A DNA stretch of 64,000 nt, from contig JAKIHM010000007.1 in the NCBI GenBank assembly GCA_021608145.1, forward strand, positions 1 through 64,000, written 5' to 3'. The first letter of the stretch is position 1. Every line of letters starts with the position of its first letter. The notes under the pieces were generated by a model. The model saw nothing but the letters and a program-made list of their open reading frames with translations. It did not search any database and was not told the DNA's origin. The DNA is from Thermovorax subterraneus. Lineage in GTDB: Bacteria; Bacillota; Thermosediminibacteria; Thermosediminibacterales; Thermosediminibacteraceae. Position numbers and translations under genes: made by a program. This document shows positions 37,527 through 41,474 of this stretch, piece after piece.

Positions 37527-38102
37527 CTAGCAAAATATGTGTTTGTGCTGGTAGTGCTCCTGGACCTGCATCAGCGCCTCGCCGAATCTCTGGAAGTGGA
37601 CTACTTCCCTTTCCCTGAGGAAGGAGAGCGTTGCAATAACCCCGTCGTCGTCGGTGAGGGAGATAAGGTGTTCGTATGTTGTGCGGGCTTTCTGTTCGGC
37701 AGCCATGTTTTCGTGGAGGTCGGTTATTGGATCTCCCGTAGCCTGGATATAGGCGGCGGTCCAGGGTACTCCGGCAGCGTCATGGGGATAAAGGGCTTTG
37801 TCGTGCTGTGCGAAATGGTCCCCAAGGCCGGCCTCTCTCAACTGCTCGGGTGTGGCGTCTTCGGTAAGTTTATATATGAGCGTACCTATAATTTCCCAGT
37901 GAGCCATCTCCTCGGTTCCGATGTCGGTAAGGAGGGCCTTAGCCTGGGGTATCGGCATCGTATATCGCTGGGTGAGGTATCTCACCGCGGCGGAAAGTTC
38001 GCTGTCAGGGCCGCCGTACTGGGCGAAGAGGAATTTTGCCATGGCTAAATCGCAGCGCCTCACGTTGGCAGGGTACTGCAGTTTTTTCTCGTAAAACCAC
38101 AT
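37527..38102 (-). CDS. cotJC: Spore coat protein CotJC (manganese-catalase-like)
   Basis: CotJC is a spore coat component of the Mn-catalase fold; some members remove H2O2. The 191-residue product starts MWFYEKKLQYP and shows di-metal ligands in the helical bundle (DIGTEEMAHWEIIGTLI, MAAEQKARTTYEHL, REREVVHFQRFGEAL). ATG 38102 is chosen because GGAGGTGG precedes it and the family begins there; the longer upstream frame overlaps cotJB. Last gene of cotJABC on the reverse strand. Confidence 0.95.
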   Translation of the reverse strand: MWFYEKKLQYPANVRRCDLAMAKFLFAQYGGPDSELSAAVRYLTQRYTMPIPQAKALLTDIGTEEMAHWEIIGTLIYKLTEDATPEQLREAGLGDHFAQHDKALYPHDAAGVPWTAAYIQATGDPITDLHENMAAEQKARTTYEHLISLTDDDGVIATLSFLREREVVHFQRFGEALMQVQEHYQHKHIFC

Positions 38103-38118
38103 TTTTGCCACCTCCTGC

Positions 38119-38376
38119 TCAATATTGGATTTCCCAGGGCCACGGGTCGTTGATGTAGCGATAGGGATAGGGAGATTCGGAGTCGAGTCTAAGCGGCCCG
38201 TATCTATCTTCAAAAGCTTTTCTGAGCTGATTTAATCTACTTACGAGTCGGTTGTGGTCTTCTAATGCTCTCCTGTCGCCCGGGTGGGTATCCAAAAACA
38301 GGGCAAGTTCATAAACACCAAATTCCAGTGCCTGGATTTCCTTGAGCAACTCCACCATTGACCTGTAATCATGCAT
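38119..38376 (-). CDS. cotJB: Spore coat protein CotJB
   Basis: This 85-residue helical protein follows the CotJB pattern: MVELLKEIQALEFGVYELAL, FLDTHPGDRRALEDHN, and a C-terminal DSESPYPYRYINDPWPWE. It is needed for assembly of CotJA and CotJC into the coat in Bacillus. It sits 16 bases before cotJC, in the usual cotJA-cotJB-cotJC order. GAGGTGAAGTGGG is its SD. Confidence 0.93.
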   Translation of the reverse strand: MHDYRSMVELLKEIQALEFGVYELALFLDTHPGDRRALEDHNRLVSRLNQLRKAFEDRYGPLRLDSESPYPYRYINDPWPWEIQY

Positions 38377-38994: not shown

Positions 38995-39014
38995 AAGAGG
39001 GATTAATCCCTCTT
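38995..39014 (-). terminator. Terminator of the thiF-cysK transcript
   Basis: A palindromic stem, AAGAGGGA/TCCCTCTT with loop TTAA, is followed on the reverse strand by TTTTCTTTTTA. It lies 13 bases after the reverse-strand cysK stop. Confidence 0.8.
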
Positions 39015-39026
39015 GGATTTTGTTAA

Positions 39027-39965
39027 TCACTCAGAAGGAAAGAGCCCTTCTACGCTTAAGTAGCGTTCGCCTGTATCAGGAAGGACCGTAACTACCAGGT
39101 TACCTGGTCTAAAATTGCGGGCCACTTTTTGTGCTGCGAAAACCGCAGCACCTGCGGAAATTCCGGCAAGAATTCCCTCTTTTGTTGAAAGCTCTCGGGC
39201 AGTTTCAAAAGCTTCTTCATTGGTTACTGTTATAATTTCGTCAATTAGGTCAAGGTCCAATACTTTCGGTATGAAACCGGCACCTATTCCCTGAATTTTG
39301 TGGATTCCTGGCTTTCCTCCTGACAGCACTGGTGACGATGCCGGTTCTACTGCCACTATCTTCAGATTGGGAAATTCTTTTTTTAACACCCGCGCGACAC
39401 CGGTTATCGTGCCTCCAGTGCCTACCCCGGCTACAAAAGCGTCAAGTTTCCCTCCGGTCTGCTCTAATATTTCTAAAGCTGTTGTTTTTTCATGGATATC
39501 AGGATTAGCTGGGTTCTCGAATTGCTGAGGCATGAAAGAATCCTTGATTTCCTTTGTTAGTTCCAAAGCCTTTTCTACAGCTCCCCTCATTCCCAATTCT
39601 GGAGGAGTAAGGACGAATTCGGCGCCATAGGCCTTCAAAAGCTTGCGCCTCTCTACGCTCATTGAAGCAGGCATCACCAATATCAACCGGTATCCTTTAA
39701 CGGCACATACCATTGCAAGGCCTATGCCTGTATTACCGCTGGTTGGTTCTATAATCGTTGAGCCCGGTTTTAAAATCCCCTTTTTTTCGGCGTCTAATAT
39801 CATGCTGTAAGCTATTCGATCTTTTACACTCCCGCCGGGGTTAAAGGATTCGAGTTTTGCTGCAATGATTGCTCCCTCCTTTGGCGATAACTTCGAGAGC
39901 CGGACCATAGGAGTGCTGCCGATAAGATCCAAAATGGAATTAAAAATGCGGTTTGTCCTTTCCAT
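39027..39965 (-). CDS. cysK: Cysteine synthase, second copy
   Basis: This fold-type II PLP enzyme of 312 residues has the PLP Lys in [13 protein letters not shown], the substrate loop [13 protein letters not shown], and the phosphate loop [15 protein letters not shown]. It is closer to classic CysK/CysM than the 28481 copy. GAGGAGGTG precedes ATG 39965. It lies 14 bases after a ThiF/MoeB-type fusion gene, which suggests that its sulfur may come from a thiocarboxylated carrier protein (as for CysM with CysO) rather than only free sulfide. No carrier gene is seen here. Confidence 0.94.
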
Positions 39966-39979
39966 AAGTATTCACCTCC

Positions 39980-41359
39980 TCAATTATTTTTGCAAACAAA
40001 ATCGTAGTTTCCACCTAAATCTTTTATTGAAGGATTTTCGCCACATATTGGGCATTTGTCATTTTTCGATAGAACAGGTGTAATAAAGTTAAGTTCTAGT
40101 GAATCGAAAATTAAAAATCTCCCAGATAAAAGCTTCCCACAGCCTCCAAAAATTTTTACGGCTTCTATAGCCTCAATAGTTCCCATTACTCCAGGTACTG
40201 GTCCTAACACGCCAGTTTCGGCGCAGGATAGAACGGCTCCTGCTTGGGGCATTTTAGGGAAAACGCACCGGTAGCACGGGCCTTTTCCTGGCAAAATTGT
40301 CATCGCTATTCCTTCGAATCTCAGTACTGCGGCTTCGGCAAGAGGCTTTCCTGCAAGGACACAGGCGTCGTTTAAGAGATAGCGGCTTGGCAGGTTATCG
40401 ACGCCGTCAACTATGATGTCATAATCCTTTATTATTTCAAGGGCATTTTTGTTGTTGAAACGAACATTGTACTTCTCAATATTTATTCCGGAATTTATTT
40501 TTTTCAAAAACATTTCAGCGGATTCAGCTTTAGGGATTCCTATGCGTGAAGTCGAATGAAGAATTTGCCTATTTAAGTTGCTCATCTCTACAATATCGCT
40601 GTCTAAAAGGCCGATATTTTTAACCCCTGCCAATGCGAGGGAAAAGGCAGCCGGAGAGCCGAGCCCGCCACTTCCGACTATGAGGACTTTCAAAGTGGAA
40701 AGGTTTTTTCCCCTGAGTGGGTCTTCCGTTGATATTTCTTCAAGGGGTTTAAAGTCTTTTATGGATTTAAATTCCATATCCAGCAAGTTGTAATAAAGAG
40801 GTTCTTCCAATGTCCTTCCCAGGTTTAAACAGATTTTTATAGCCTCTATCGCCGAAATTGTCCCTGCAAAAAAACGAGAAAATACGAGGCCCGGAGAGTT
40901 TTCGCAAGAACCTTTCATTTTTTGTGGAAAAGTAAGCTTATTACTTCCGCAGTCTTTTGCCGTCATTAAGCATCCGTTCCAGGGACGGATGAAGCTTAGG
41001 ATTTTAGGTACTCCTTTTAGTCGCTCAGATTCCTCGAAGTCGTCTGTAAAAAGGGCAAAGCTGATTTTTTCCATATTTTTAAAATTCGGAATATCACTGT
41101 AAAACTCGACTTCCAGGTCAGGATTTAGGTCTAGTAGACCTGCTTTGAGTTCGGAAAACTCCTCTTTTTTCTTCAAAATTACATAAAGATGCCCTATGCC
41201 TGATGCGGCCAGATAATAAAGCAGCGAAAGGATGTCTTCGACGGAATCGGCCACCACTATACCTTCCGACTCCAACAGTTTTTTTTGCCCAGGGCCGCTG
41301 ATTTCAGGCATGATAATATGTCTCATATACCTTGTTATTTGTTCCTTTGAGAGGATCAC
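39980..41359 (-). CDS. Fused ThiF/MoeB-type E1 enzyme: inactive plus active domain
   Basis: E1-like enzymes adenylate the C-terminus of ubiquitin-like sulfur carriers (ThiS, MoaD, CysO). Residues ~1-215 start like MoeB/ThiF with an Arg-finger segment (RYMRHIIMPEISGPGQKKLL) and end like one (FAGTISAIEAIKICL, LDMEFKS), but GxGGLG is replaced by VADSVEDIL and the Asp/Cys motifs are gone. Residues ~220-459 form an intact domain: LIVGSGGLGSPAAF, DSDIVEMSNLNRQILH, VDGVDNLPSRYLLND, CYRC and CPIC zinc pairs, and the catalytic Cys of SCAETGVLGPVPG. This half lacks its own Arg-finger helix. GTG 41359 has an AGGGGTGG SD. The partner carrier is not in the window. Confidence 0.9.
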   Translation of the reverse strand: MILSKEQITRYMRHIIMPEISGPGQKKLLESEGIVVADSVEDILSLLYYLAASGIGHLYVILKKKEEFSELKAGLLDLNPDLEVEFYSDIPNFKNMEKISFALFTDDFEESERLKGVPKILSFIRPWNGCLMTAKDCGSNKLTFPQKMKGSCENSPGLVFSRFFAGTISAIEAIKICLNLGRTLEEPLYYNLLDMEFKSIKDFKPLEEISTEDPLRGKNLSTLKVLIVGSGGLGSPAAFSLALAGVKNIGLLDSDIVEMSNLNRQILHSTSRIGIPKAESAEMFLKKINSGINIEKYNVRFNNKNALEIIKDYDIIVDGVDNLPSRYLLNDACVLAGKPLAEAAVLRFEGIAMTILPGKGPCYRCVFPKMPQAGAVLSCAETGVLGPVPGVMGTIEAIEAVKIFGGCGKLLSGRFLIFDSLELNFITPVLSKNDKCPICGENPSIKDLGGNYDFVCKNN

Positions 41360-41412
41360 AGCACCACCCCTCAAAATAATTCCGTGTAAACTGATAAAAA
41401 TATTATACTTTA

Positions 41413-41441
41413 ATTATAAAGTTAACTATATAGATTGTCAA
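41413..41441 (-). promoter_or_regulatory. Promoter of thiF-cysK
   Basis: On the reverse strand TTGACA (41441-41436), 17 bases, TATAAT (41418-41413): a consensus sigma-A promoter about 55 bases before the GTG start. Confidence 0.88.
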
Positions 41442-41449
41442 ACAAAAAA

Positions 41450-41474
41450 AGAGAACCTTCGTGTGAGGTTCTCT
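41450..41474 (-). terminator. Terminator of bioY
   Basis: AGAGAACCT and AGGTTCTCT (41450-41458, 41466-41474) form a 9-bp stem, followed on the reverse strand by TTTTTTTG. It begins 5 bases past the bioY stop. Confidence 0.88.

Follow-up and report, generated by a model that had tools for sequence, protein, structure and literature searches.

A likely single-chain asymmetric E1-like enzyme for sulfur carriers, encoded next to cysK in Thermovorax subterraneus

The window analyzed here is a stretch of 64,000 nucleotides of Thermovorax subterraneus (assembly GCA_021608145.1, contig JAKIHM010000007.1), and our subject is a single minus-strand gene at 39980 to 41359 whose product of 459 residues joins two E1-like domains head to tail. 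We consider this fusion likely to be a single-chain, asymmetric E1-like adenylyltransferase for ubiquitin-like sulfur carriers, in which a pseudo-E1 half (the N half) would lend an arginine finger to the sole active site in the other half (the C half). This assignment, which we hold with good but incomplete confidence, draws on sequence comparison and structural models, from which we also infer the catalysis, the Arg-finger action, the substrates and the sulfur donor of the fusion. The features that carry the argument are listed below.

39980..41359, minus strand: pseudo-E1/E1 fusion protein, 459 residues, GTG start (open frame of 459 codons)
40748..41359, minus strand: N half, residues 1-204, degenerate (predicted inactive) E1 domain retaining the N-terminal Arg-finger helix (hhalign, fold, ratio of nonsynonymous to synonymous substitution rates [dN/dS])
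41321..41323, minus strand: codon of Arg13, the putative finger (invariant in 24/24 fusions; aligned to Arg18 of Uba4)
39983..40708, minus strand: C half, residues 218-459, active-type MoeB/ThiF adenylation domain without an N-terminal finger helix (Pfam, MoeB match)
40397..40675, minus strand: span of the C-half ATP site, with the GxGGxG loop (229-234), Arg264, Lys277 and Asp321 (each invariant in 24/24)
40223..40225, minus strand: codon of Cys379, the catalytic-type cysteine of the crossover loop (present in 19/24 fusions)
40043..40276, minus strand: span with two zinc-type cysteine pairs, 362/365 and 436/439 (24/24 fusions)

The N half as a degenerate E1 domain

Comparisons across fusions use 24 aligned sequences, 19 from an initial set of loci and 5 from a phylum-wide sample, with L001, L006 and L007 left out as duplicates of L004, L034 and L035. 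A profile of N halves (n = 20) aligned by hhalign to single-domain MoeBs (n = 20) over 200 columns at E 3.5e-32, and this match, together with the predicted fold of the N half, bears out the claim of an earlier, sequence-only reading of the window that one protein holds two head-to-tail E1 domains. The alignment leaves a gap in the N half opposite the template segment from D-x-D to N-L-Q-R-Q and sets a Glu opposite the template Lys, and the ATP-binding middle of the N half is therefore missing. The same reading had described a first half that keeps the helix RYMRHIIMPE and has lost the nucleotide loop, as the window protein does, and in all 24 fusions the N half retains the finger Arg and has no nucleotide loop. 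It had also placed the Arg finger in this half, correctly, but at residue 16, where the finger Arg is residue 13 counted from the GTG, or 18 counted from an alternative TTG. Four residues of the N half (R10, R13, G24 and Q25) are invariant in the 24 fusions.

Against solved structures, the profile of 20 N halves matched ThiF (2.2e-13), MoeB (1.1e-9) and Uba4 (3e-9 to 7e-9); its 8 matches at E <= 0.1, the last of them unrelated, included no Uba1 and no 8tyz-type chain. The search of each half against ThiF that had been suggested earlier gave a divided answer: the C half matches at 3e-74 and a separately encoded homologue of the N half (L144:7413-8042) reaches 52.4 bits against a cut-off of 28.1, but the N half of this fusion has no match to Pfam ThiF when matches up to E 1 are considered. 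PADLOC likewise gave no match for the N half of the window protein and one weak match for the split N half.

Modeled alone from six sequences, the N half yielded a model of moderate quality (predicted local distance difference test [pLDDT] 64.9; predicted template modeling score [pTM] 0.67). Its fold matches were MoeB (Z 16.5), the 518-residue chain of the APPBP1-UBA3 complex (16.5), and ThiF and human SAE1 (16.2-16.1), where Z values less than 1 apart count as tied. From its length we take the 518-residue chain to be APPBP1; in eukaryotic E1s, APPBP1 and SAE1 serve as the inactive subunits. Foldseek ranked ThiF first for the same model (6.7e-11), so the E1 fold on which the earlier reading depended was recovered by both searches. 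An 8tyz-type chain was absent among the 50 matches listed for this model, which is not evidence of absence. On these profile and fold comparisons the N half is a pseudo-E1, that is, an E1 domain predicted to lack an ATP site. An N half unrelated to E1 was rejected on the hhalign match to MoeB, the Pfam match of the split homologue and the fold matches.

A degenerate domain of this kind could also be a functionless remnant of a tandem duplication in the course of decay. The N half evolves faster than the C half (dN/dS of 0.11-0.25 versus 0.05-0.12 in 6 pairs, rough where dS > 1.4) and part of its E1 core has been deleted, as a decaying remnant would lead one to expect. Its dN/dS nevertheless lies well below 1, purifying selection acts on each of the two halves in the 6 pairs tested, the four residues named above do not vary, and the N half persists in 17/26 class genomes, in one of them encoded separately, and in 8 sequences from elsewhere. 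We regard decay as very unlikely.

The C half as an active-type MoeB/ThiF domain

Pfam ThiF covers residues 218-437 of the fusion only, and no additional Pfam domain rises above cut-off on the 459 residues. The top solved match of the C half is E. coli MoeB (1jw9, E 1.4e-45), to which it aligns to the end with gaps of 1-2 residues. The ATP site of Uba4 has been described as Gly45, Arg77, Lys90 and Asp134 from one subunit and Arg18 from the other, in the part of the paper concerned (PMC7527816). In a phmmer alignment to 6yub these correspond to G232, R264, K277, D321 and R13 of the fusion, each present in 24/24, if chain index and published numbering are taken to differ by one residue, an inferred shift that is the same for all five. 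GSGGLGSP, the crossover Cys, Asp321 and two CxxC pairs are all present in the C half and the finger helix is absent from it, as the sequence-only reading had stated.

Among NCBIfam models, the PRK05690.1 subfamily is passed (270.1 versus 266), and TIGR02355 moeB (214.4/376.6), TIGR02356 thiF (230.6/275.3), PRK08762.1 (336.1/449) and UbaA (305.2/450) remain below cut-off. PADLOC returned generic E1-E2 matches only for the C half. The crossover-loop Cys is missing in five of the 24 fusions (L019, L038, L196, L197 and L198) with the ATP residues intact, a pattern that points to adenylation without a Cys-bound intermediate.

Division of the catalytic machinery between the halves

Each of the 24 fusions has a single RYxR[HQN], located in the N half, and a single GxGGxG, located in the C half, and the distance between the two motifs is 214-257 residues. 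In single-domain controls the spacing from RYxR[HQN] to GxGGxG is 27 residues in 76/76 cases, these controls having been selected for carrying both motifs within 60 residues. A chain with one GxGGxG argues, at the level of sequence, against a symmetric homodimer with two active sites.

The full-length model, built from 25 aligned sequences (6 full-length and 19 covering the C half only), has a pLDDT of 84.6 and a pTM of 0.90. By VIA-align its best matches are 8tyz_A (Z 34.0) and 8tz0_A (Z 33.7), which superimpose over 383 residues and both halves with a root mean square deviation (rmsd) of 3.1. Uba1, Uba6 and Uba7 chains are among the matches listed, at Z 27.0-30.4 over 374-414 residues with rmsd 2.9-3.5, and single MoeB, ThiF and Uba4 chains are placed on model residues from about 150 onward, that is, on the C half and the end of the N half. 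Alignment of both halves at such an rmsd makes the predicted arrangement a Uba1-like pseudo-dimer. In its model, then, the fusion belongs to the asymmetric structural class of an inactive adenylation domain followed by an active one (IAD-AAD), with both E1-fold domains predicted to form a pseudo-dimer. The central proposal of the sequence-only reading, an asymmetric E1 in which one half carries the finger Arg and the other the ATP site, is thereby supported by hhalign, motif spacing and models, and also by a genome in which the halves are separate genes.

The same halves could alternatively associate between chains, either C half to C half as in MoeB or with halves swapped, leaving the N half as a regulatory element or a scaffold for NifU, a desulfurase or CysK and not as an Arg donor. 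Oligomers are invisible to monomer prediction, and the N half does occur close to a sulfur-relay partner, with the gene immediately upstream of the fusion encoding NifU_N in L036 and L037, and with a NifU_N domain ahead of the pseudo-E1 in the same chain in L195. Pairing of two C halves, however, would leave the dimer without a finger of this kind, because the C half is without the RYxR helix in 24/24 fusions, the N half retains the finger Arg in 24/24, and the full model shows the Uba1-like arrangement within one chain. An intermolecular dimer seems to us improbable, though its probability is not negligible, and we retain the intramolecular donation of the finger as the likely arrangement.

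Distribution, split form and origin

Sixteen of the 26 genomes of the class carry the fusion and one more, G025, carries the halves as two genes. The first G025 gene encodes 209 residues with the Arg helix and without GxGGxG, and the second 243 residues with GxGGxG and without the Arg helix; the genes overlap by ATGA and a ribosome-site-like stretch precedes each. A frameshift error as the source of this split is disfavored by the ATGA overlap and the two ribosome-site-like stretches, in what is a single assembly.

The N-half profile was run against 398 genomes drawn from the phylum, of which 130 matched, with at most 7 candidates scored per genome and E <= 1e-30 counted as a fusion. Fifteen reached that threshold, 10 inside the class and 5 outside it, and five loci inspected among the other 115 matches (L200-L204) were all single-domain. 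Among 80 loci from named genome records there were 5 fusions, in two close relatives and in Aminicenantes, Bacillota and Clostridiales bins. Fusions outside the class amount to 8 sequences. An assembly or sequencing artefact was rejected on the 16 class genomes and the 8 outside sequences. A close relative, L034 of Fervidicola ferrireducens, is 87% identical to the window protein. In G252 (L195:1063-2823) a single chain of 586 residues has a NifU_N domain (144.6 bits) followed by the pseudo-E1 and then the E1.

In the tree, the 25 N halves cluster together (100/99), and so do the 24 fused C halves (100/98). The C half of the split pair falls apart from the fused C halves, without firm support, and a grouping of all 25 is not rejected by the approximately unbiased test (p-AU 0.408), so nothing follows from its separate placement. 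N-half branches are long and drew a long-branch warning from the program, and the branching within the N-half group is unsure. The tree fits a single origin of the pair with fusion later, the order of these events not being proven.

Carriers and likely substrates

The genome of T. subterraneus (G000) has seven matches to PF02597, one of which corresponds to the TGS region in a RelA/SpoT protein, leaving six carriers. Five adjoin genes for aldehyde ferredoxin oxidoreductases (AOR); the sixth ends in SGG and precedes a TtuA-like gene. That gene matches TtuA at 3.1e-88 and its carrier matches TtuB at 4.2e-13, with the TtuA-like gene under the NCBIfam TtuA equivalog cut-off (314 versus 450). TtuA genes occur in 9/9 genomes of the family and in one other genome of the class, and in all nine family genomes the coordinates place a carrier 15-20 bases upstream of the TtuA gene.

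Across the class, AOR genes were found in 15/17 genomes with the fused or split pair versus 2/9 without it, and at least one true carrier in 16/17. In genomes without the fusion, the carrier search gave only RelA-type frames (6/9 searched; G022-G024 left out). Fisher tests against presence of the fused or split pair give p 0.0016 for AOR and 7e-5 for carriers, ignoring shared ancestry. G022 and G024, which have AOR and lack the fusion, each hold another full-length ThiF-family match.

Four genomes of 98-99% completeness (G003, G005, G006 and G008) have the fusion as their only ThiF protein over cut-off, and they carry TtuA with an adjoining carrier plus further carriers and AOR genes, the pattern looked for in a shared E1 of the TtuC kind. 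The clearest case is G006 (one contig, 99% complete), with one AOR and carrier, one TtuA and carrier and no further PF02597 match; from a single ThiF-family match and two kinds of carrier it follows that one E1 would serve both. Such sharing has precedents. Thermus TtuC is described as the only E1 for several carriers, TtuB, MoaD and ThiS, in the relevant part of PMC3980101, and in Thermococcus a single E1 is presumed to serve both tungsten cofactor synthesis and tRNA thiolation in an excerpt of PMC11323500.

A role in thiamine synthesis as ThiF was rejected, no convincing ThiG being found in the 26 genomes. PF05690 (ThiG) matches occur in 26/26, many above the 23-bit cut-off, the best at 37 bits and each listed match covering about 42-108 of 247 positions, and we read them as other TIM barrels.

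Three further observations concern these carriers and E1s. A ThiS-like carrier of T. subterraneus beside an AOR-family gene (L124:6229-6429) ends in Gly-Gly-Cys, and its relatives in L167 and L170 end in Gly-Gly. In a second E1 of the same genome (L002:1516-2529), which we take to be HesA-like, the ThiF match starts only at residue 114; its counterpart in G004 follows a MoaD-like gene and the end of an AOR gene (L166), and there is no carrier match at that place in G000. AOR genes are carried by 17/26 genomes of the class despite no MoaE being found in the 26.

The link to cysK

That the fusion adjoins cysK, as the sequence-only reading had noted, is real and conserved: cysK is the next gene in 14/16 fusion genomes of the class. 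The split form lacks this neighbor, as do L036-L038, and inspection by eye of the short flanks around L195-L199 showed no cysK. The further suggestion of that reading, a dedicated activator of a carrier feeding the cysteine synthase, is not supported. Under such a scheme a CysO-like thiocarboxylated carrier would pass its sulfur to CysK-bound O-acetylserine, and cysteine would be released by a protease. In its favor, the fusion gene is separated by 14 bases from cysK, a promoter match precedes the pair and a hairpin follows it, the adjacency is conserved, and a distant single-domain relative lies in a run (L146) made up of genes for MoeB, a sulfite-reductase-like protein, a TusA-like protein, ThiS and cysK. 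Other results speak against it. No open reading frame of 50-130 residues ending in Gly-Gly was present in the whole window or in the neighborhoods of 23 relatives, in a scan that recovered known carriers in 6/6 control loci and from which carriers with extra tail residues would escape; the scan gave no candidate at these 24 loci for the nearby ThiS/MoaD-like gene that the earlier reading had proposed to look for. PF02597 has no match on the contig of the window, and no JAB protease (Mec+-type) exceeds the Pfam cut-off in the genome of T. subterraneus; the known CysO route needs such a protease. The six carriers of this genome go with AOR or TtuA and not with cysK, and the gaps in cysK adjacency already described count in the same direction. 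We rate a CysO-type activator as unlikely.

A 2006 paper describes operons that combine an E1, a carrier and cysteine synthase, and the portion that treats them mentions no tandem inactive E1 (PMC1779556). The usual sulfur source for carrier thiocarboxylates is cysteine, by way of cysteine desulfurase, according to part of PMC3980101, and a unit shared with cysK is for this reason sensible without a dedicated route.

The L146 run itself (L146:7495-10762, G027) comprises a MoeB-type E1, a sulfite-reductase-like gene (assigned from its counterpart in L145), a TusA-like gene (by eye), a 67-residue ThiS ending in GGGI, and cysK. It is a candidate for a carrier-linked route from sulfite to cysteine.

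Proposed mechanism and its weight

We propose that the C half would bind ATP and the C-terminal Gly-Gly of a carrier and form the acyl-adenylate. The N half would pack on it like the second subunit of a MoeB/ThiF dimer, its N-terminal helix inserting Arg13 into the C-half ATP site, with one active site left per pseudo-dimer, as in Uba1. A cysteine desulfurase could then load sulfur on the activated carrier, perhaps aided by a NifU-like protein, from cysteine that the cysK product would supply. The likely carriers would be the TtuB-like protein, for tRNA 2-thiolation with TtuA, and the MoaD/ThiS-like proteins beside the AOR genes, whose products are tungsten enzymes.

Several points weigh against this proposal. 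The first 20 residues of the full model, which include the putative finger, have a pLDDT of only about 61-62, and two chains swapping halves would fit the same residues. G000 and G004 also have the second, HesA-like E1, and G007 and a second family hold further ThiF-family proteins. G019 (88% complete) has the fusion and no detected carrier or AOR, and G002 (81% complete) is without detected AOR. MoaE was not found in any of the 26 class genomes, which implies a non-standard pterin route. Finally, the proposed substrates leave the cysK link unexplained.

Covalent conjugation to proteins by a Bil-like E1, in place of sulfur transfer, would also use a pseudo-dimer of this shape. The bacterial E1-E2-Ubl complex 8tyz is the best fold match, and Thermus TtuB is also conjugated to proteins with TtuC required, as described in part of PMC3980101. 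The fusion, however, has no separate catalytic Cys domain, and its crossover-loop Cys is absent in 5/24 sequences; the carriers go with AOR and TtuA, the genome has no JAB over cut-off, and E2 was not searched. We give conjugation very little credence, and activation of sulfur carriers stays the likely function.

Transcription unit and neighboring genes

The remaining features of the locus are these.

41413..41441, minus strand: sigma-70-type promoter match upstream of the fusion gene, 12/12, TTGACA-17-TATAAT (pattern match)
41450..41474, minus strand: terminator-like hairpin separating bioY from the fusion-cysK unit (pattern match only)
39027..39965, minus strand: cysK, cysteine synthase A, 14 bases 3' of the fusion gene (TIGR01139, 465.5 bits, cut-off 351)
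38995..39014, minus strand: terminator-like hairpin 3' of cysK (pattern match only)

The GTG of the fusion gene is preceded by GAGGGGTGG, a likely ribosome site, and the alternative in-frame TTG at 41374 would lengthen the protein by 5 residues. Of 13 upstream regions obtained, 7 were aligned; these 7 are from one family, and all keep the TTGACA of the promoter. The scan for terminator-like hairpins found 7 sites versus 4.2 expected. With bioY and cysK as its neighbors, the fusion gene appears to open a unit of two genes, the second being cysK. An A+T-rich palindrome (ACTTTA-TAAT-TAAAGT, window 41400-41430) overlaps the -10 box of the promoter and is a possible operator; it is kept only partly in relatives. 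Beyond cysK, at window positions 37527-38376, lie Mn-catalase and CotJB genes of the spore-coat type.

Comparison with known systems

The active half of the fusion is of MoeB/ThiF type by sequence, sharing ATP residues and Cys pairs with MoeB, ThiF and TtuC, and as in the hosts of those enzymes its own genome encodes MoaD/ThiS/TtuB-type carriers. Unlike these homodimers, the fusion has in place of one subunit an apparently inactive domain, which is joined to the active one in a single chain or, in G025, comes from a neighboring gene, and unlike single-domain MoeB/ThiF it has no finger helix 27 residues ahead of GxGGxG in the same domain. MoeB/ThiF are described, in the sections concerned, as active domain only (PMC12687455) or as homodimers (PMC12355090). 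In the open-access literature searched, no description of a sulfur-carrier E1 with an inactive partner came to our notice. Work on the E1-like superfamily by Burroughs et al. (2009) may mention such proteins. The HesA-like second E1 of the T. subterraneus genome belongs to the same ThiF family (181.5 bits), and differs from the fusion in being a single E1 domain, matched from ThiF position 1, with an N-terminal part of its own and no CxxC pair by eye.

Eukaryotic Uba1, NAE1-UBA3 and SAE1-SAE2 resemble the fusion in combining an inactive with an active adenylation domain. The fusion, at 459 residues, is without their FCCH/SCCH Cys domains and ubiquitin-fold domain, and its context is that of sulfur carriers. 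BilD is a bacterial IAD-AAD pseudo-dimer with an N-terminal inactive and a C-terminal active adenylation domain, a Cys domain of about 80 residues and a Bil operon, as set out in part of PMC11354881. The fusion shares with BilD the pairing of inactive and active halves in a predicted pseudo-dimer, and its best structural match, 8tyz (Z 34.0), is from its title ('bacterial E1-E2-Ubl complex') presumably a BilD. Aligned to MoeB, however, the fusion has no insertion corresponding to the Cys domain of about 80 residues; it is flanked by bioY and cysK and not by a Bil operon, in a genome without JAB over cut-off and in which E2 was not searched; and the N-half profile listed no 8tyz at E <= 0.1.

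These comparisons bear on the claim of the sequence-only reading that the fusion is an independent pseudo-heterodimer. Independence is probable, as the N-half profile finds ThiF, MoeB and Uba4 and not Uba1 or 8tyz, though not proven; a correction to that reading is that BilD already provides a bacterial inactive plus active E1. We lean toward an independent invention of the asymmetric E1 within the sulfur-carrier branch, of which successive stages would survive as the homodimeric MoeB, the two-gene heterodimer of G025, the single-chain fusion and the NifU-pseudoE1-E1 chain of G252. If so, neither ubiquitin conjugation nor transthiolation is a precondition for evolving the asymmetric design, a pseudo-dimer with one active site can act on several carriers, and the G252 chain would join sulfur supply with carrier activation. 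With relatives in both split and fused form, the route from a homodimer to an asymmetric E1 becomes testable in moderately sized bacterial proteins. A bacterial IAD-AAD E1 was known already from BilD, and what the fusion would add is an inactive partner within an E1 for sulfur carriers.

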